Shown: piece by piece, positions 23,670 through 58,343 of the stretch
Layout: the number at the start of each line of letters is the position of its first letter
How positions within the stretch are numbered: the first letter of the stretch is position 1
NCBI GenBank assembly: GCA_021108215.1
Contig: JAIORK010000049.1
Span: 62,001-126,000 of the forward strand
Source of the DNA: a bacterium
Lineage (GTDB): Bacteria; Oederibacteriota; JAAXVQ01; JAUVAV01
Direction of reading: 5' to 3'
DNA length: 64,000 nucleotides
Translations under genes and position numbers: made by a program
The notes under the pieces: generated by a model
Seen by the model: the letters and a program-made list of their open reading frames with translations, nothing else
Told to the model about the DNA's origin: nothing
The model's database searches: none

Positions 23670-23998
23670 TATAAGTCAGCTTTCTATTATTAGTAGTCTC
23701 CGGGCATTTGATTAAATCCGGTATTAAAGTACCTACGTCCCAATTCTCAATAGCTGTTAAGCTAATCAAACAGCCTAATTTATAAGTCCTGTGGAATGCT
23801 TGCTTTAAAAGGAAAACCGGCACTGTATCAACACGTTAGAGCAAGCAATGCCGATAGCGCTCACTATTGTTATACCTTACGTGATGGTGCGTTTTTTCCT
23901 TTTAAAACAAGCATTCCACAGGACTATTTCACCTATCGTATTGCCTATGTTAAAAATAGTTCCAGAAAGACCGAGTAATTTCTTGCTGGAATATCGTG
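23670..23998. other. Intergenic region between nfnA and pckG, mostly occupied by a palindromic element
   Basis: The 329 bases hold ERIC-like element copy 1 (23785-23925) and otherwise AT-rich sequence. A weak minus-strand promoter candidate (TTGAGA near 23748) lies upstream of nfnA, with a poor -10. No ORF here is convincing. Confidence 0.6.
23785..23925 (-). repeat. ERIC-like long palindromic element, copy 1
   Basis: Two arms of about 32 bases pair with one mismatch; the outer arm is AGTCCTGTGGAATGCTTG. The mismatch is C-A on the plus strand but G-U on the minus strand. Read on the minus strand, the 67-base stretch after ACGCACCAT aligns without gaps to copy 2 and contains GATACAGT. The arms differ from those of copies 2 and 3. 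Confidence 0.8.
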
Positions 23999-25896: not shown

Positions 25897-26066
25897 GGGA
25901 CGTTCATTAGTATATCAGTATACGGCGAATTCAAAATCATATTATCAATCAACAATTTCATTTACTTGACAAGCGTGAATATTTTCAATTAAGCTGTAAA
26001 AAGTAGGGAACAGTCGCGACTGTTCCCTACGAATATCACACCAAGCAGGTATTTCGGGAGGAAAGC
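25897..26066 (+). repeat. Upstream repeat of the delta-60 cassette, copy 1 (with putative promoter)
   Basis: This 170-base segment is nearly identical to 29478-29647, both ending directly before the delta-60 start codon; the last part recurs before the truncated third copy. It contains TTGACA (25966-25971) as a possible -35 box, though the -10 match (TAAGCT) is poor, then the 28-bp palindrome and a CGGGAGGAAAGC ribosome binding site. Confidence 0.7.
26003..26030. repeat. 28-bp palindrome, copy 1
   Basis: A perfect palindrome with half-site GTAGGGAACAGTCG. It sits in the leader between the putative promoter and the ribosome binding site of the first delta-60 gene. Identical at 29584-29611, near-identical at 28832-28859 and a compensated variant at 58316-58343. 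Confidence 0.9.
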
Positions 26067-28835
26067 ATGAAAACAAAAACATTTTTTCTGAGTATGATAT
26101 TAATGGTTGGTCTGGTCCTGGCCGGGCTGACAACAAAGAGCTATGCCGCATCAGCCAATGATGAATTCAATCCCGATGCCAACAATACTGTTTATACCTT
26201 GACTGTGCAGGCTGATGGGAAAATACTCGTAGGCGGTTGGTTTACCAGCATCTCAGGCACACCCAGGAACCGCATCGCCCGCTTAAATACGGACGGCACT
26301 TTGGATATTGCTTTCAATCCTGATGCCAATGACGGTGTCCATTCTCTGGCCGTACAGGCTGATGGAAAAATACTTATAGCCGGTGATTTTACCACGATAA
26401 GCGGTGTGACCCGGAATCACATCGCCCGCTTGAATACAGACGGCTCTTTGGATGTCGCATTCAATCCCAATGCAAACTACGTTATTCGCACTCTGGCTGT
26501 GCTGGCTGACGGGAAAATACTTGTAGGTGGTGATTTTACCACCATCGCAGGTAGTTCCAGAAACCGCATCGCCCGGCTGAACACGGACGGCGCTGTGGAT
26601 GTTACCTTTGATCTCAATGTAAATAACGCTATTCGTGTGCTGGCTGTGCAAGCTGACGGAAAAATACTCATAGGCGGTAGTTTTACCACCATCGCGGGTG
26701 TGACCCGAAACCACATTGCCCGGCTCAATTCTGACGGCACTTTGGATACTGCTTTTGATCCCAATGCAGGCGGCAGTGTCTATACCCTGGCTCTGCAGGT
26801 TGACGGAAAAATGCTCGTAGCCGGTGATTTTACCACTATAGGCGGTGTGACCCGGAACCGTATCGCCCGCTTGAATACAGACGGCACTTTGGATGTTGCC
26901 TTTGATCCCAATGCAGGCGGCAGTGTCTATCCTCTGGCTTTGCAGGCTGACGGAAAAATACTTATGGGCGGTGATTTTACCACCATAGGCGGTGTGACCC
27001 GAAACCACATTGCCCGGCTCAATACAGACGGTACTTTGGATGTGACCTTTGCTCCTACTGCAGATGGTAATGTCTATGCCTTAGCCGTGCAGACAGATGG
27101 ACAAATACTCGTGGGCGGTGATTTTATCACCATCGCAGGCAGTTCCAGAAACCGCATCGCCCGCTTAAATACAGACGGCACAGCGGATGCCACCTTCAAT
27201 TCTGTTCCCGACGACATGGTCCAAACCATGGCTGTGCAGGTTGATGGAAAAATACTTATAGGCGGTATGTTTACTTATGTCGCAGGTGTGTCCAGGAACC
27301 ACATCGCCCGGCTCAATTCGGACGGCACATTGGATATCACCTTTGATCCTAATGCGGACAACATTGTCCAGACTTTGGCTGTGCAGGCTGACGAAAAAAT
27401 ATTCGTAGCTGGTGGTTTTGCCACCATCTCAGGCACTGCCAGAAACAGCATCGCCCGGCTCAATTCCGACGGCACTTTAGATACTGCCTTTGATCCCAAT
27501 GCAAACAGCATAGTCTATACCTTGGCTGTGCAGGCGGACGGCAAAATACTCCTGGGAGGTTTTTTTACTACTATATCAAGCACAGCCCGGAATTACATCG
27601 CCCGGTTGAATACGGACGGTACATTGGATATTGCTTTCAATCCTGATGTCAACAATGGTCTCCGTACTCTGGCTGTGCAGGCGGATGGAAAAATACTTAT
27701 AGGCGGTGATTTTACCAGTATCTCAGGCACACTTAGGAACCACATCGCCCGATTAAATACAGACGGTACTTTGGATATTACCTTCAATCCCAATGCAGGC
27801 GCCACTGTCCAAACCCTGGCTGTGCAGGCGGACGGCAAAATACTTGTAGCCGGTAATTTTACCAGTATCTCAGGCACACTCAGGAACTACATCGCCCAAT
27901 TAAACTCTGATGGCACTTTGGATACCAGCTTCAATCCTAATGCAAGCCACTATGTCAATACCCTGACTGTGCAGGCAGACGGAAAAATACTCCTGGGTGG
28001 TTGGTTTACTACCATCGCCGGTGAGACCAGAAACTACATCGCACGGCTCAATTCCGACGGCACTTTAGATACTGCCTTTAATCCTGATGCAAGCGACATT
28101 GTCTATACCCTGACTGTGCAGGCTGATGGTAAAATACTCGCAGGCGGTTATTTTACCACTATTGCAGGCGAGGCCAGAAACTACATCGCCCGGCTGAGCG
28201 CGGATGAGGCTGCGCTGCAAAACCTCGCTGTATCCGCTGACGGCACAACCATAACCTGGATGCGGGGCCAGTCATCTCCGGAAGTCTACAATGTCACCTT
28301 TGAATACTCTTCAGAGGGAACGAGCTGGACTTCTTTGAGCACAGGAACGCGCATTAGCGGAGGTTGGCAGCTATCCGGACAAGCATTGTCTTATAATGAA
28401 ATCGGATACATTAGAGCACAAGGTCAAAGCTCGGGAGGATATTGCAATGGTTCCACCGGGATTATCGAATCTGTGAAGCAGTATTACAATTATCTCGCTC
28501 CCGCACCTACACCTACTGTGACATCAACCCCTGCTGTGATATTAGACAATCCGTTGCTGAATGTGGATTTAAAAGGAAAAATTACTCTAGCCTATCCCAA
28601 TCCTGCTAAAAATGAAATGCGGTTCTTGTTCCGCTTAGATCAAGCCGCTAAGGTGGATTTACAGATTTACAATATGTCCGGCGAACAAATTGCCCAGCTT
28701 ACGCAATCCCTGCCAGCCGGTCAGGGACAAACCATTGTGTGGGATTGTTCATCTGTCGCGCCAGGCATCTATCTTGTGCGGATTATTATGGATGGCGAAG
28801 AAAAAAGATTAATCAAGGTGGCAATTGTGAAGTAA
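26067..28835 (+). CDS. Secreted delta-60 repeat (DUF5122) beta-propeller protein with C-terminal sorting-type domain, copy 1
   Basis: A 922-residue protein. A signal peptide (residues 1-29, ending SYAAS) precedes 14 repeats of about 51 residues, each with VQADGKILVGG and RNxIARLNTDGTLD, the delta-60 / DUF5122 pattern that folds as propeller blades. A fibronectin-like segment follows (about 715-805: LQNLAVSADGTTITW and SSEGTSWTSL), then a short Pro/Thr linker and a C-terminal domain (ITLAYPNPAKNEMRF, LQIYNMSGEQIAQL, PGIYLVRI) of the FlgD-Ig / type IX-like sorting style. Likely exported and surface-anchored or secreted; ligand unknown. The stop codon TAA lies inside a 28-bp palindrome. The next gene is a small STAS-like protein, and the pair is repeated at 29648-32978. 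Confidence 0.92.
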   Translation: MKTKTFFLSMILMVGLVLAGLTTKSYAASANDEFNPDANNTVYTLTVQADGKILVGGWFTSISGTPRNRIARLNTDGTLDIAFNPDANDGVHSLAVQADGKILIAGDFTTISGVTRNHIARLNTDGSLDVAFNPNANYVIRTLAVLADGKILVGGDFTTIAGSSRNRIARLNTDGAVDVTFDLNVNNAIRVLAVQADGKILIGGSFTTIAGVTRNHIARLNSDGTLDTAFDPNAGGSVYTLALQVDGKMLVAGDFTTIGGVTRNRIARLNTDGTLDVAFDPNAGGSVYPLALQADGKILMGGDFTTIGGVTRNHIARLNTDGTLDVTFAPTADGNVYALAVQTDGQILVGGDFITIAGSSRNRIARLNTDGTADATFNSVPDDMVQTMAVQVDGKILIGGMFTYVAGVSRNHIARLNSDGTLDITFDPNADNIVQTLAVQADEKIFVAGGFATISGTARNSIARLNSDGTLDTAFDPNANSIVYTLAVQADGKILLGGFFTTISSTARNYIARLNTDGTLDIAFNPDVNNGLRTLAVQADGKILIGGDFTSISGTLRNHIARLNTDGTLDITFNPNAGATVQTLAVQADGKILVAGNFTSISGTLRNYIAQLNSDGTLDTSFNPNASHYVNTLTVQADGKILLGGWFTTIAGETRNYIARLNSDGTLDTAFNPDASDIVYTLTVQADGKILAGGYFTTIAGEARNYIARLSADEAALQNLAVSADGTTITWMRGQSSPEVYNVTFEYSSEGTSWTSLSTGTRISGGWQLSGQALSYNEIGYIRAQGQSSGGYCNGSTGIIESVKQYYNYLAPAPTPTVTSTPAVILDNPLLNVDLKGKITLAYPNPAKNEMRFLFRLDQAAKVDLQIYNMSGEQIAQLTQSLPAGQGQTIVWDCSSVAPGIYLVRIIMDGEEKRLIKVAIVK

Positions 28836-28859
28836 GGAACAGTCGCGACTGTTCCCTAC
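28832..28859. repeat. 28-bp palindrome, copy 2, overlapping the stop codon of the first delta-60 gene
   Basis: Matches the palindrome at 26003 with one change (GTAAGG for GTAGGG). The stop codon of the CDS (28833-28835) is supplied by this element. Confidence 0.85.
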
Positions 28860-29074
28860 GAAGAAGCGGGGACTAGGAAATTTTCTTTAGTTTCTAGGGT
28901 TTTACGAAATGTATTGGAAAACAATAAGAACTAAGCTAAACTCAAAAATGATGGATGCCCCAATGGAACAGGGTCTAATTTCCAACCTTGAGGTTGATTG
29001 ATGGGGTAATCATCCAGATGGTAACGGAGGGGTGAAGGTAATCACCATTTATAAATACGAATAAGGAGTGAAGG

Positions 29075-29443
29075 ATGGCTAGTGTTGGCTTTGCTGTGTA
29101 CAAAGGGCGCAGGATATTACAATTGGATTTAACCGGGGCTAAGGATGGAAAAAAAGAGGGTTTTATGGTGATTGGAAAATTGAATGAGCTGATAGTAAAA
29201 GAACCAATGAATTCAGTACTGGCTCTAATAGATGTTAGTCAAGCATATCTTACACCAAAAATACTGGCAATTTTAAAGGAAGGTGCTGGTAAAAACAAAA
29301 ATTATGTAAAGGCGGCGGCAATTGTTGGTGCCAGTGGAGTGAAAAAATTACTTATGCAAATAGTTGCCAATATAACTGGTAGAAATATTAAGCAATTTAA
29401 TAGCATTAGTGAAGCAAAAGACTGGCTCGTTTTACAGGAATGA
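29075..29443 (+). CDS. Small STAS / SpoIIAA-like protein, copy 1
   Basis: A 122-residue cytosolic protein without signal peptide, with AAGGAGTGAAGG directly before the ATG. The sequence alternates strands and helices: ILQLDLTG, VLALIDVSQAYL, KAAAIVGASGVKKLL, then FNSISEAKDWLV. The end motif (Phe then Glu-Ala-x3-Trp-Leu) is typical of SpoIIAA/STAS-like single-domain proteins. It is a paralogue of the gene at 32619. It sits downstream of a delta-60 gene in both cassettes. Function unknown; a regulatory partner role would be inference. Confidence 0.75.
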   Translation: MASVGFAVYKGRRILQLDLTGAKDGKKEGFMVIGKLNELIVKEPMNSVLALIDVSQAYLTPKILAILKEGAGKNKNYVKAAAIVGASGVKKLLMQIVANITGRNIKQFNSISEAKDWLVLQE

Positions 29444-29477
29444 AACCTCCCCCGCAATAAAAAGGGACATGGGATCA

Positions 29478-29647
29478 GGGACGTTTATTAGTATATCAGT
29501 ATACGGCGAATTTAAAATCATATTATCAATCAACGACTCCATTTACTTGACAAGCATGAATATTTTCAATTAAGCTGTAAAAAGTAGGGAACAGTCGCGA
29601 CTGTTCCCTACGAATATCACACCAAGCAGGTACTTCGGGAGAAAAAC
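29478..29647 (+). repeat. Upstream repeat of the delta-60 cassette, copy 2 (with putative promoter)
   Basis: Same 170-base layout as 25897-26066, with TTGACA at 29547-29552 and the start codon at the same distance of 101 bases. The near-identity points to recent tandem duplication of the whole cassette. Confidence 0.7.
29584..29611. repeat. 28-bp palindrome, copy 3
   Basis: Identical to the copy at 26003-26030 and at the same place in the leader of the second delta-60 gene. Confidence 0.9.
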
Positions 29648-32554
29648 ATGAGAACAAAAATAATTTTTTTGAGTATGATATTAATGGTTGGTCTGGTGCT
29701 TTCCGCGCAGCTGACAAGAGTATATGCCGCCTCAGCCAATGATGGATTTAATCCCGATGCAAGCAGCTATGTCTATACCCTGGCTGTGCAGGCTGACGGC
29801 AAAGTACTCGCAGGCGGTAATTATATCACCATCGCAGGCGCGACCAGGAACCGCATCGCCCGTTTGAATACAGACGGCACATTGGATGTTGCCTTTGATC
29901 CCAATGCAAACCACAATGTCTATGCCTTAGCCGTGCAGGCTGACGGAAAAATACTTAGCGGTGGTTGGTTTACCACCATGGGTGGCGTGGCCAGGAATCG
30001 CATTGCCCGTTTGAATACGGACGGCACTTTGGATGTGACCTTTGATCCCAATGCAGATGGCAATGTCTATGCCATAGCCGTACAGGCTGATGGAAAAATA
30101 CTTATAGGTGGTTGGTTTACCAACATAGACGGCGTGCCCAGGAACCACATCGCCCGCTTGAATACGGACGGTACTTTAGATGTAACCTTTGATCCCAATG
30201 CAGATGGCAATGTCTATGCCTTAGCCGAGCAGGCTGACGGAAAAATACTTATAGGTGGTGATTTTGCCTCTATCGATAGTGTGACCAGGAACCACATCGC
30301 CCGTTTGAATACAGACGGCACATTGGATGTGACCTTTGATCCCAATGCAGACGGCAGTGTCCGTACCCTGGTTGTGCAGGTTGACGGAAAAATACTTATA
30401 GGCGGTTATTTTACTACCATCGCAGGTATGACCCGGAACCGCATCGCCCGTTTGAATATGGATGGCACTTTGGATGTTGCCTTTGATCCCAATGCAAACT
30501 CTGTTATTAAGACCTTGGTTGTGCAGGCTGACGGAAAAATACTCGCAGGCGGTTACTTTACTACCATCGTTGGTGTGACCCGGAACCGCATCGCCCGTTT
30601 GAATACAGACGGCACTTTGGATGTTGCCTTTGTTGATCCTAATGTAAACGGCAGTGTCATTGCCTTAGCTGTGCAGGCTGATGGAAAAGCGCTCGCCGGC
30701 GGTGAGTTTACCACCATCGCTGGCGTGACCCGGAACTACATCGCCCGTTTGAATACGGACGCCAGACTGGATGTCACCTTCGATCCCAATTCAGGCGGCA
30801 CTGTCCGTGCCCTGGCTATGCAGGTTGATGGAAAAGTGCTCGCCGGCGGTGCTTTTATTACCATCGCCGGTAGTGCCAGAAACCGTATCGCCCGTCTGAA
30901 TACGGATGGCACTGTGGATGTTGCCTTTGATCCCAATGCTGACAGCAGTATCTATACCTTAGTCGTGCAGGCTGATGGAAAAATACTTATAGGTGGTTGG
31001 TTTACCAACATAGGCGGCGTGACCCGGAACCGCATCGCCCGTTTGAATACGGATGGCACCTTGGATACTGCCTTTGATCCCAACGCAGGAGGCAGCAGTG
31101 TTTATACCCTGGCTGTGCAGGCTGATGGGAAAATACTTATAGGTGGTTGGTTTACCACCATGGGTGGCGTGACCAGGAACTACATCGCCCGTTTGAATAC
31201 AGACGGCACTTTGGATGTTGCCTTTGATCCTGATGTAAACAACCGCGTCTATACCCTGGCTGTGCAGGCTGACGGGAAAATACTCATCGGCGGTTCTTTT
31301 ACCACCGTTGCCGGTGTGGACCGAAACCGCATCGCCCGTTTGAATACGGATGGCACCTTGGATACCGCCTTTGATCCTAATGCCAGCCACTCTGTCCGTA
31401 CCCTGGCTGTACAGGCTGACGGAAAAATAATTATCGGCGGTTCTTTTGCCACCATCGGGGGTGTGCCCAGGAACCAAATCGCCCGTTTGAATGCTGACGG
31501 CACTTTGGATGTTGCCTTTGATCCCAATGCAGGCGGAGTCGGCAGTGTCTATACCCTGGCTGTGCAGGCTGACGGAAAAATAATTATCGGCGGTTCTTTT
31601 GCCACCATCGGGGGTGTGACCCGGAACTACATTGCCCGTTTGAATACGGACGGCACTTTGGATGTGACCTTTGATCCCAATGCAGATGGCGATGTCTATG
31701 CCATAGCCGTGCAGGCTGATGGAAAAACACTCGCAGGCGGTCAGTTTATCACCATCGGCGGTGAAACCCGGAACCGCATCGCCCGGCTGAGCGCGGATGA
31801 GGCTGCGTTACAAAACCTCGCTGTGTCCGCTGACGGCACCACCCTGTCCTGGATGCGAAGCCAATCATCTCCAGAAAACTATAAGGTAACCTTTGAATAC
31901 TCTTCAGATGGAACGAGTTGGGTTTCTCTGGGTGTTGGTACACGCATTAGCGGAGGTTGGCACCTGACCGGACAGTCATTGGCTTATAATGAAATTGGAT
32001 ACATTCGTGCACAAGGCCAAATCTCGGGAGGGCAACACAATGGTTCCGCCGGATTTATCGAATCTGTGAGACAGTATTATAATTCTCTCACTCCCACAGC
32101 GACACCTACACCGACTGTGACATCAACCTCCACAATAACACCAACTATAACCGCGACTTATACCGCAACGCCCTTGGCGACTATCAATCCCACGGCAACA
32201 CCAAGCCCGACTTTTTCGGCAACGCCGACTGCAACCATAACGATTACCGCAACCCCCACACCGGACAATCCGTTGCTGAATGTGGATTTGAGAGGAAAAA
32301 TCACACTCGCCTATCCCAATCCTGCTGTTAATGAAATGCGGTTCTTATTTCACCTGGATCATGCCACAGAGGTGGGTTTGCAGATTTACAATATGTCAGG
32401 CGAACAAATTGCTCAGCTTACGCAATCCCTGCCGGCCGGACACGGACAAACCATTGTTTGGGATTGTTCATCTGTCGCGCCCGGCATCTATCTGGTACGA
32501 ATTATTATGGATGGTAAGAATAAAGGACAACTAAAAGCAGCGATTGTGAAATAA
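29648..32554 (+). CDS. Secreted delta-60 repeat (DUF5122) beta-propeller protein with C-terminal sorting-type domain, copy 2
   Basis: A 968-residue paralogue of the gene at 26067, with the same signal peptide pattern, again 14 blades of about 51 residues, the same fibronectin-like segment and the same C-terminal domain (ITLAYPNPAVNEMRF and LQIYNMSGEQIAQL). The main difference is a long Thr/Pro linker (about residues 815-878), probably a cell-wall or envelope-spanning spacer. Blade sequences differ in local residues while the frame is kept, so the propeller surface has diversified although blade number is conserved. Ribosome binding site CGGGAGAAAAAC precedes the ATG. Confidence 0.92.
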   Translation: MRTKIIFLSMILMVGLVLSAQLTRVYAASANDGFNPDASSYVYTLAVQADGKVLAGGNYITIAGATRNRIARLNTDGTLDVAFDPNANHNVYALAVQADGKILSGGWFTTMGGVARNRIARLNTDGTLDVTFDPNADGNVYAIAVQADGKILIGGWFTNIDGVPRNHIARLNTDGTLDVTFDPNADGNVYALAEQADGKILIGGDFASIDSVTRNHIARLNTDGTLDVTFDPNADGSVRTLVVQVDGKILIGGYFTTIAGMTRNRIARLNMDGTLDVAFDPNANSVIKTLVVQADGKILAGGYFTTIVGVTRNRIARLNTDGTLDVAFVDPNVNGSVIALAVQADGKALAGGEFTTIAGVTRNYIARLNTDARLDVTFDPNSGGTVRALAMQVDGKVLAGGAFITIAGSARNRIARLNTDGTVDVAFDPNADSSIYTLVVQADGKILIGGWFTNIGGVTRNRIARLNTDGTLDTAFDPNAGGSSVYTLAVQADGKILIGGWFTTMGGVTRNYIARLNTDGTLDVAFDPDVNNRVYTLAVQADGKILIGGSFTTVAGVDRNRIARLNTDGTLDTAFDPNASHSVRTLAVQADGKIIIGGSFATIGGVPRNQIARLNADGTLDVAFDPNAGGVGSVYTLAVQADGKIIIGGSFATIGGVTRNYIARLNTDGTLDVTFDPNADGDVYAIAVQADGKTLAGGQFITIGGETRNRIARLSADEAALQNLAVSADGTTLSWMRSQSSPENYKVTFEYSSDGTSWVSLGVGTRISGGWHLTGQSLAYNEIGYIRAQGQISGGQHNGSAGFIESVRQYYNSLTPTATPTPTVTSTSTITPTITATYTATPLATINPTATPSPTFSATPTATITITATPTPDNPLLNVDLRGKITLAYPNPAVNEMRFLFHLDHATEVGLQIYNMSGEQIAQLTQSLPAGHGQTIVWDCSSVAPGIYLVRIIMDGKNKGQLKAAIVK

Positions 32555-32618
32555 CCGCAGGATGGCTCCAGCTGTTTTGTGACAATTCAAACCAATCATT
32601 TTTAGAAAGGTACAACTA

Positions 32619-32978
32619 ATGTGTAATGAAATAAAATGGATGGAATATAATGGTAAAAAAATAATGGACAATGATTTATCTGGTCTATTACCTGAAAAAT
32701 TCATAAATAAAATGAATAAATTCGAGAATGCTGTAATCAGCCAAAATGACAGAAACCTATTGGTTCTTTCTGATATTGAAAATGCACAATTTAGCCCTGC
32801 GAGTATGATTGTATTAAAAAAAATTGCAGGTACAACTGCGCCCTATATAAAAAAATATGCAATAGTTGGGGTTAAAGGTATTAAAAAAATATTGTTTAAG
32901 GCAGTGCAAGTTGTATCAACTACTTCCTTGGAAGCATTTGATTCATTAGAAGAAGCTAAAAAATGGTTAGTGGAATAA
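32619..32978 (+). CDS. Small STAS / SpoIIAA-like protein, copy 2
   Basis: A 119-residue paralogue of the gene at 29075: LLVLSDIENAQFSP aligns with VLALIDVSQAYLTP, KKYAIVGVKGIKKILF with KAAAIVGASGVKKLLM, and FDSLEEAKKWLV with FNSISEAKDWLV. It is AT-richer and clearly more diverged than the neighbouring delta-60 copies are from each other. AGAAAGG precedes the ATG. It forms the second cassette with the gene at 29648. Confidence 0.75.
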   Translation: MCNEIKWMEYNGKKIMDNDLSGLLPEKFINKMNKFENAVISQNDRNLLVLSDIENAQFSPASMIVLKKIAGTTAPYIKKYAIVGVKGIKKILFKAVQVVSTTSLEAFDSLEEAKKWLVE

Positions 32979-33154
32979 TTTGAACGGAGCAGGCCTGGGA
33001 CGGGAAAAATAACCAGTGTATGACTAATATTCTGATTCCGCTGCAAAACCACTCATCATCTATAATCATGAAACAGGGGACGTAGTGGGCTGCCTCGGGT
33101 TTGATAGACACTTTAATTAAGCTGCAATCTGTGTCGATTATAAAATATTTCAAT

Positions 33155-33251
33155 TTATCAATCAGCGACTCCATTTACTTGACAAGCATAAATATTTTCG
33201 ATTAAGCTATGCGGAGTAAGTACTGCCAAGCAGGTACTTCGGGAGGAAAGC
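33155..33251 (+). repeat. Upstream repeat of the delta-60 cassette, copy 3, lacking the palindrome
   Basis: Matches the 3' part of the other two upstream repeats, including TTGACA (33179-33184) and CGGGAGGAAAGC, but the distance from TTGACA to ATG is 73 instead of 101 bases. The 28-base difference equals the palindrome, which is absent. Confidence 0.7.
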
Positions 33252-33680
33252 ATGAAAACGAAAACATTTTTTCTGAGTATGATATTAATGATTGGTCTGG
33301 TCCTGTTCGGGTTGGTGACAAAAGGCTATGCCGCATCAGCCAATGATGAATTCAATCCCAATGCAGACTTTGCCGTTCATTCCCTGGCTGTGCAGGCTGA
33401 CAAAAAAATACTCGTAGGCGTTCTTTTTAGCAACATCGGAGGTATTGGCAAGAACCGCATCGCCCGCTTGAATACAGACGGCTCAATAGATGCCACTTTT
33501 ATTCCCAATGCGGACGACGCTGTCCGTACCCTGGTTGAGCAGGCTGACGGAAAAATACTCGCAGGCGATAGTTTTACCAGTATCTCAGGCACACCCAGGA
33601 ACCACATCGCCCGGCTGAACACGGACGGTACATTGGATATTGCTTTCAATTCTGATGCCAGCTTCTTCAATCGTGCTTGA
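33252..33680 (+). pseudogene. Truncated third delta-60 repeat gene
   Basis: The reading frame of 142 codons has the same signal peptide (MKTKTFFLSMILM) and two complete blades (NRIARLNTDG and NHIARLNTDG), then ends abruptly after FNSDASF at a TGA; the following bases show no further blades, linker or sorting domain. It looks like the stump of a third cassette copy, cut by a deletion that also removed the STAS-like partner. It could still be translated as a short secreted two-blade peptide. Confidence 0.8.
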
Positions 33681-41539: not shown

Positions 41540-41704
41540 CCTTTTATTCCATTTGGGGGGAAATTGAGTTTGACGCATTTTCCCTGGTCAGATGGCTGCT
41601 CGCGGCATTTTGATCCCGCATTTACGCAGAATAAAACAAAAAGTCTGATAAATCAATACAAAACACCACTACTGGTTAAGTTATAAAGCACACTGTCTTC
41701 TATT

Positions 41705-41843
41705 CGCCCTAAGTGCTGATTTTTTTAAAGGAAAACTGATACTGTATCCATACGCTAGAGCCGGATTTGACGATATTGTCCCCTGATGTTCCACCGAAAC
41801 TTATGGTGCGTTTTTTCCTTTAAAAAAATCAGCACTTAGGGCG
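41705..41843 (-). repeat. ERIC-like long palindromic element, copy 2
   Basis: Arms of 31 bases pair perfectly; the outer arm starts CGCCCTAAGTGCTGATTT. The minus-strand core contains TCGTCAAATCCGGCTCT and GGATACAGT, shared with copy 3. About 35 bases flanking on the plus-strand left side (ending CTTCTATTC) are also shared with copy 3. Confidence 0.85.
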
Positions 41844-57409: not shown

Positions 57410-57946
57410 TCCTTCCCCATCCCGACACGATTCCAAATTTAATGACCCGCCGGTATTTATATCTTTTTTTAAATTTGGTGACCAACCAGATCCGGTTTGT
57501 CTGTTTGCCCGGAGTGTAGACGTGCAGGATGTTTGATTTTGCTGTGCACGATGCGCGACCCATTTTCACTGTTTTTTTTAGTGTGTGTACTTTGGCTGTC
57601 AACCTTTGTCGTGCCGGATATTTTGGTCAATTTGGCAAAATGCCGCACAACACCAACAGCCAGCACTGTCGGCAATACAAAACTTCCGGGCATAAACAGA
57701 ATAACCGCTAAACTCATTTTAAATATTTTTTTCAAAATAATGATTACCTTTCTTTCGCGACCTGCCGGCACTTCCATGCATAAACACCCATAGGCTTAAA
57801 TACATGCTATATAATTTATCCGCCCATACTTAACATCCCGACCGGATATACCAGTAACGGGATTTTCCTGTTTGTCTAAAGTCCCACTGGAAAAAAACCA
57901 GCAAAACCAATACCAGCTAAATTACAGAAGCGCACTGTTTTCTATT

Positions 57947-58106
57947 CACCCGGAGTTCTGATTTTCAAAGAAAAACCGAAACTGTATCCGCACGCCAGAG
58001 CCGGATTTGACGATACTGCTCCCTGCTGTTCACCTAAACTCGCGGTGCGTCCTGCATCCGGCATTCGCCGGACAATTTTTTTCTTTAAAAACCAGAACTC
58101 CGGGCG
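57947..58106 (-). repeat. ERIC-like long palindromic element, copy 3, with inserted hairpin
   Basis: Arms pair with three mismatches, all of which are G-U on the minus strand; the outer arm on that strand is CGCCCGGAGTTCTGGTTT. The core shares TCGTCAAATCCGGCTCT and GGATACAGT with copy 2. A 28-base extra piece with a perfect 6-bp stem (TCCGGC/GCCGGA around ATTC) lies between one arm and the core. Confidence 0.85.
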
Positions 58107-58150
58107 AGCCGGTTAGCTGCTATTTAATTAGTCGATCCTGCAAACAAAAC

Positions 58151-58306
58151 AGACCTGTGGGTATTGTTGAACGAATATGCTGCAGGGGTATGGCCTGATA
58201 GACTTATTTAGCGGCTAGCAGTTCATTATAGGCGGTTATTTCCATGTCCCCGTAATATCAAAAAGGCCCCTTTGCAGCATATTCGTTCAACAATGCGCAC
58301 AGGTCT
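58151..58306. repeat. Large inverted repeat
   Basis: Arms of 38 and 40 bases pair with few mismatches around a 78-base centre; the shared inner part is TTGTTGAACGAATATGCTGC. Further partial pairing continues inward (CCTGATA with TATCA). It is unrelated to the ERIC-like and 28-bp families. Confidence 0.75.
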
Positions 58307-58315
58307 CCACCGATA

Positions 58316-58343
58316 GTAGGGAATGGTCGCGACCATTCCCTAC
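58316..58343. repeat. 28-bp palindrome, copy 4 (compensated variant)
   Basis: A perfect palindrome with half-site GTAGGGAATGGTCG, which differs from copies 1 and 3 at two positions on each side, with both halves changed so that symmetry is kept. Confidence 0.85.

Follow-up and report, generated by a model that had tools for sequence, protein, structure and literature searches.

Covarying internal stems without strand preference in a decayed family of bacterial MITEs

Among the bacterial MITEs with stem-loop interiors are ERIC, Chunjie and QMITE2. They are short and intergenic, and combine terminal inverted repeats (TIRs) and direct repeats with a strong predicted stem-loop (PMC10969869). The MITE described here is likewise of this form; in contrast to those three, it has another sequence, and its internal arms vary from copy to copy but change together inside any one copy. 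Two further bodies of work bear on it. The first concerns template switching between inverted repeats, which gives arm homogenisation and spacer inversion (PMC8604942) and has been proposed as a way in which RNA stems arise and become fixed, and as a source of compensatory stem changes (PMC8794818). Arm homogenisation, spacer inversion and clustered compensatory changes in these template-switch or quasipalindrome mutations (PMC8604942, PMC8794818, PMC7202029) resemble what we describe below, although those cases come from yeast genes, RNA genes and E. coli and here the process would act on a dispersed MITE family. The second concerns the IS4Sa subgroup of insertion sequences, which have ends of the form CA------T, target duplications of 8-10 bp, a length of 1150-1750 bp and a YREK motif (De Palmenaer 2008; PMC2266710).

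We analysed a 64-kb stretch of DNA, referred to below as the window. An earlier note on this DNA had described three dispersed elements in which a long stem encloses a shared core, and on re-reading the sequence all three were found in place (Table 1). The core is indeed near-constant in length, the larger value in copy 3 including an added hairpin that the earlier note had also recognised. The stem is the inner part of a larger unit of about 214 bp with its own terminal repeats, and these repeats are decayed in all three window copies.

Table 1. Parts of the three copies, with positions in the window
Copy	Feature	Position	Strand
1	Left terminal repeat, decayed (CAATAGCTGTTAAGCTA), like that of copy L043	23748..23764	
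1	Left stem arm, 32 nt	23785..23816	
1	Core/loop, 77 nt	23817..23893	+
1	Right stem arm, 31/32 complementary to left	23894..23925	
2	Left terminal inverted repeat, decayed (CACTACTGGTTAAGTTA vs consensus CAYTGCTGTCCAAATTA)	41667..41683	
2	Left stem arm, 31 nt	41705..41735	
2	Core/loop, 77 nt; conserved CTGATACTGTATCCATACGCTAGAGCC...TTGACGATA and GGTGCGTT	41736..41812	+
2	Right stem arm, 31/31 complementary to left	41813..41843	
3	Left terminal repeat, decayed (CAATACCAGCTAAATTA)	57908..57924	
3	Left stem arm, 30 nt	57946..57975	
3	Core/loop, 102 nt including the extra hairpin	57976..58077	+
3	REP-like hairpin insert, 26 nt (TCCTGCATCCGGCATTCGCCGGACAA); same site in several other copies	58050..58075	
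3	Right stem arm, 27/30 complementary to left; three A·C mismatches on +	58078..58107	

In the genome to which the window belongs (67 contigs, 3.56 Mb), BLAST gave 43 matches. The collection of all copies with a covariance model, which the earlier note had proposed, holds about 43 copies from this genome and six from one of the 44 relatives searched (same family, candidate division FCPU426). When the copies are read with their flanks, the intact unit is seen to consist of 17-bp TIRs (CAYTGCTGTCCAAATTA), a subterminal stretch of approximately 20 bp at either end, an internal inverted repeat of approximately 30 bp and a core of approximately 77 nt. Its length is typically 211-217 bp, and a spacing of 214 bp between the TIRs recurs. 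The unit is non-coding and multi-copy and carries no transposase open reading frame. Both 17-bp TIRs are recognisable in 24 copies, 13 of which have 9-bp direct repeats just outside the TIRs that match at 7-9 of 9 positions. Examples of such target duplications include TATTAGACT on both sides of L099 and GTATAATAA at L009, where the end is shifted by one. Shortened derivatives also exist, which keep the TIRs and have lost the core and one arm at the same junction (L017/L035, L027, L053); since they are multi-copy with one junction, they appear to have moved too.

The three window sites hold decayed copies of a MITE, a DNA transposon that cannot move by itself. The earlier note had set its elements apart from an ordinary decaying MITE, a distinction that is not supported. 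The elements are MITEs, with TIRs and 9-bp duplications and a relationship to insertion sequences of the IS4 family. The family is new; its kind, a MITE of IS4Sa-like type, is already known. Membership in ERIC, judged by the TIRs and ends alone, is unlikely because the TIRs differ and the ends are of IS4 type. The core pattern also matched twice in Pseudoalteromonas (L061, L062), but arms are absent there and both are chance hits.

One core copy, L109_700 (L109:700-841), lies beside an ordinary copy and has perfect 32-bp arms wholly unlike all others, with no recognisable TIRs. Might the core itself be an element that inserted independently into many different pre-existing palindromes? The arms of L109_700 would fit such an origin. 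However, most arms align together, with the inner TTTAAAGGAAAA in common; the outer TIRs and subterminal sequence are common to the copies; and it is the TIRs, rather than the core, that the 9-bp duplications flank. We regard independent insertion into palindromes as extremely improbable.

The ends of the unit lead to a candidate source of transposase. A genome of the same family contains an element of approximately 1.27 kb (CATAGCTGTCCAAATTA...TAATTTGGACACATGTG; L067/L158) with a perfect 9-bp duplication, AAGAAATAT, on both sides. The 387-aa protein of L067 matches PF01609 (DDE_Tnp_1) and PF14294 (DUF4372), as well as the NCBIfam model “IS4 family transposase” (NF033592; 277 bits against a cut-off of 115). 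In a genome of the same order, another element (L069) likewise has these ends around a related transposase. The ends (CATAGCTGT...), the 9-bp AAGAAATAT and the length of L067 all fit the values for IS4Sa in Table 1 of PMC2266710, and the YREK motif of the subgroup is visible in its protein (IYKDRWQIEIFFKTLK). By its ends, duplication length, size and motif, the partner element appears to belong with IS4Sa, and we call it “IS4Sa-like.” The MITE has the TIR and the 9-bp duplication in common with IS4Sa, whereas it has no transposase and its interior is unrelated. As to the linkage to a transposase that the earlier note had suggested looking for, the same ends flank an IS4-family transposase in relatives but not in the window's own genome, whose 3.56-Mb assembly has no match to PF01609 or PF14294. 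Comparison of ends and domains strongly supports the view that the MITE was moved in trans by an IS4-family transposase (IS4Sa-like, DUF4372 + DDE_Tnp_1) that is now absent from the assembly.

The TIR is present in all seven of the nearest relatives searched. Four MITEs in relatives (L141, L148, L149, L150) combine these TIRs and perfect 9-bp duplications with interiors of another kind. Because unrelated interiors stand between the same TIRs, the stem and core seen in the window represent one interior type in a wider TIR family. In L148, L150, L141 and others, the interiors are built of CCACAGATT-type inverted repeats.

The earlier note had claimed that unlike arms nevertheless pair with their own partners, and that this amounts to covariation. 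Both statements are borne out, and strongly. In an alignment of 29 copies and 31 arm pairs, 94.6% of the cells show standard pairing; shuffling the partners lowers this to 78.7%. Changes on both sides affect 154 cells, against 49 +/- 6 in the shuffles. Inside one copy the arms mismatch at 6.2% of positions, while the outer arms diverge by 44% between copies. Even where the left cores of copies are less than 5% apart, this outer-arm divergence is 21%. Within three subfamilies we counted 10, 10 and 21 matched changes in both arms, where 0.5, 0.6 and 1.5 would be expected of independent arms. The matched changes include transversions and, in L001, a paired 2-nt insertion.

Does this covariation reflect selection on an RNA? 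The earlier note had argued that all stem mismatches are G·U wobbles when read on the minus strand. This is so in the window, where all four mismatches (one, none and three in copies 1, 2 and 3, respectively) are A·C on the plus strand. A selected RNA made from one strand should have more G·U mismatches on that strand than A·C ones, which read as G·U on the opposite strand, and genome-wide no such excess is found. Over 40 copies there are 31 G·T and 35 A·C mismatches on the plus strand, plus 16 transversions (p = 0.71; 95% confidence interval of the G·T share 0.35-0.60, which alone gives the power of the comparison), in counts that are not fully independent because the copies are related by descent. 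The 29-copy alignment alone gives 20 G·T and 19 A·C. Mismatches that are equally G·T on either strand, with transversions among them, are what the earlier note had said would refute its reading; its four-of-four pattern is a small-sample accident of three copies.

Other signs of an RNA were sought as well. The long stem is the only structure common to the copies; RNAalifold gave no second conserved helix on either strand. No Rfam family was found, either at the gathering thresholds or at E <= 1, where the only matches were meaningless ones to miRNA precursors, mostly alike on both strands. In addition, copies without recognisable TIRs are paired as well as the others. The idea that the stem is a functional RNA hairpin of the minus strand, kept by selection, draws on the strong covariation and on the four wobbles of the window copies; set against the equal mismatch counts, the single common structure and the Rfam result, it is unsupported, and we judge it very unlikely. 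The covarying stem is explained equally by template switching. A hammerhead-like CTGATG...CGAAAC in copy 2 was dropped as a candidate, as it is not conserved in other copies.

The reading we favour, with a probability of roughly three in four, is that of a decayed MITE, moved in all likelihood by the IS4Sa-like transposase, whose arms would have been homogenised in place by template switching. In this process, known as quasipalindrome correction, a replicating nascent strand would switch template between the two arms, copying the sequence of one arm into the other and at times inverting the loop. The two arms of each copy would drift jointly while the copies diverge from one another, and compensatory changes would therefore appear without selection on RNA.

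Several observations point to such a process. The first is the behaviour of the arms as the elements decay. Arm mismatch is 6.3% in copies with both TIRs recognisable and 6.1% in those with a TIR lost (Spearman -0.07). The mean TIR divergence is 24%, and approximately twice that (49%) would be expected as arm mismatch without homogenisation. Lost ends make the TIR measure noisy and the comparison therefore rough, but restricting it to the 21 copies whose TIRs are good gives the same picture (TIR divergence 13.9%, arm mismatch 6.3%). That arm mismatch stays flat as the TIRs decay suggests a DNA-level process acting in place, independent of mobility. From the balance of mismatches, we estimate, roughly, that the arms are homogenised about once for every two stem mutations or so.

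The second observation is inversion of the core. Judged against the asymmetric outer sequences of the nearest relatives, the core is turned round in at least four copies, with alignment scores in swapped versus same orientation of 55/24 (L096), 45/16.5 (L097), 45.5/20.5 (L077) and 29.5/15 (L116). The third comes from a neighbouring MITE (L124). A 9-nt stretch of its right arm has 7 departures from the consensus built on eight relatives, each matching the reverse complement of the left arm, so that the right arm, unlike those of the relatives, is the exact reverse complement of the left over 21 nt. Against its nearest relative (L133), however, L124 differs at only 4 of those positions, which counts against a template switch. 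Taken together, the flat arm mismatch, the inverted cores and the clustered change in L124 point to template switching, both parts of whose footprint are present: clustered changes that turn one arm into the reverse complement of its partner, and an inverted spacer. From this footprint we infer the mechanism; the pattern itself is observed directly. Not simply predicted by template switching is the share of transversions, which make up 17 of 41 paired changes but 8 of 58 unpaired ones.

L124, at 58151-58306 in the window, belongs to a second, unrelated MITE family, for which BLAST gave up to 30 genomic matches, including some to its flanking palindrome. The mismatches of this family number 17 G·T versus 2 A·C. 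A strand bias was considered and rejected, since every copy has them in largely the same columns; they are inherited differences between the two ends of the element.

The arms could also have been homogenised by RecA-type recombination or gene conversion rather than by template switching during replication. Either would explain the arm identity and the four inverted cores as well. However, homologous recombination has little to work with in 30-bp arms, and tracts of a few nucleotides better suit template switching. We hold the recombinational route to be quite unlikely.

Selection of the hairpin at the DNA level, or on both strands, must be weighed too. A cruciform or single-stranded DNA hairpin, a bidirectional terminator or an aid to transposition would favour compensatory mutations without strand bias, in agreement with the equal G·T and A·C counts. 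Internal inverted repeats also occur in several of the unrelated interiors between the same TIRs (L141, L148, L150), and the core is conserved: divergence is 31% in its left 40 nt, compared with 44% in the arms and 56% in the middle of the loop, a difference that neutrality alone does not explain. It is tempting to hypothesize that the internal foldback is a selected DNA feature, unrelated fold-back interiors having been gained repeatedly in the TIR family (the stem and core here, the CCACAGATT type in relatives), and that a hairpin on either strand serves the element or the host, with the conserved core as the recognised part; we would give this low odds. Stems are equally good in copies that have lost their TIRs, which argues that mobility is not what maintains them, and the shortened derivatives appear to have moved in several copies without the core and the second arm. 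The terminator version is ill-suited and was rejected, since in mechanically called open reading frames the genes neighbouring the copies lie in every orientation, divergent included. On balance, selection on the DNA hairpin seems unlikely, and the strong covariation without strand preference is most simply a by-product of template switching.

Functional RNA is the usual reading of compensatory changes in a stem, yet here a largely dead transposon family covaries without strand preference. The family is thus a warning that covariation alone is no proof of RNA. Two cheap controls separate selection on RNA from arm correction at the DNA level, namely the balance of G·T and A·C mismatches and the relation of stem quality to element age. 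With approximately 50 natural replicates, the family also offers material for measuring the rate of stem homogenisation.

Some other features were seen along the way. Another hairpin element, with core AAGCGGAAATCGTTTTCACAA, is represented by L120 and L121 (G000:C6:92179-92399 and C45:53594-53762); its arms differ between the two copies and pair within each. The palindrome GTAGGGAANNGTCGCGACNNTTCCCTAC occurs at 26003-26030, 28832-28859, 29584-29611 and 58316-58343 in the window and at 48 sites in the genome. Its NN positions vary (TG/CA, CG/CG, CA/TG) and are matched on both sides in nearly all sites. A minus-strand open reading frame (3-21203) runs off the start of the window and is 7067 aa or more in length. 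Three adjacent genes at 26067-33680 consist of DUF5122 beta-propeller-type repeats of approximately 49 aa (147 bp); the first has a Por secretion tail, and their upstream regions are near-identical.
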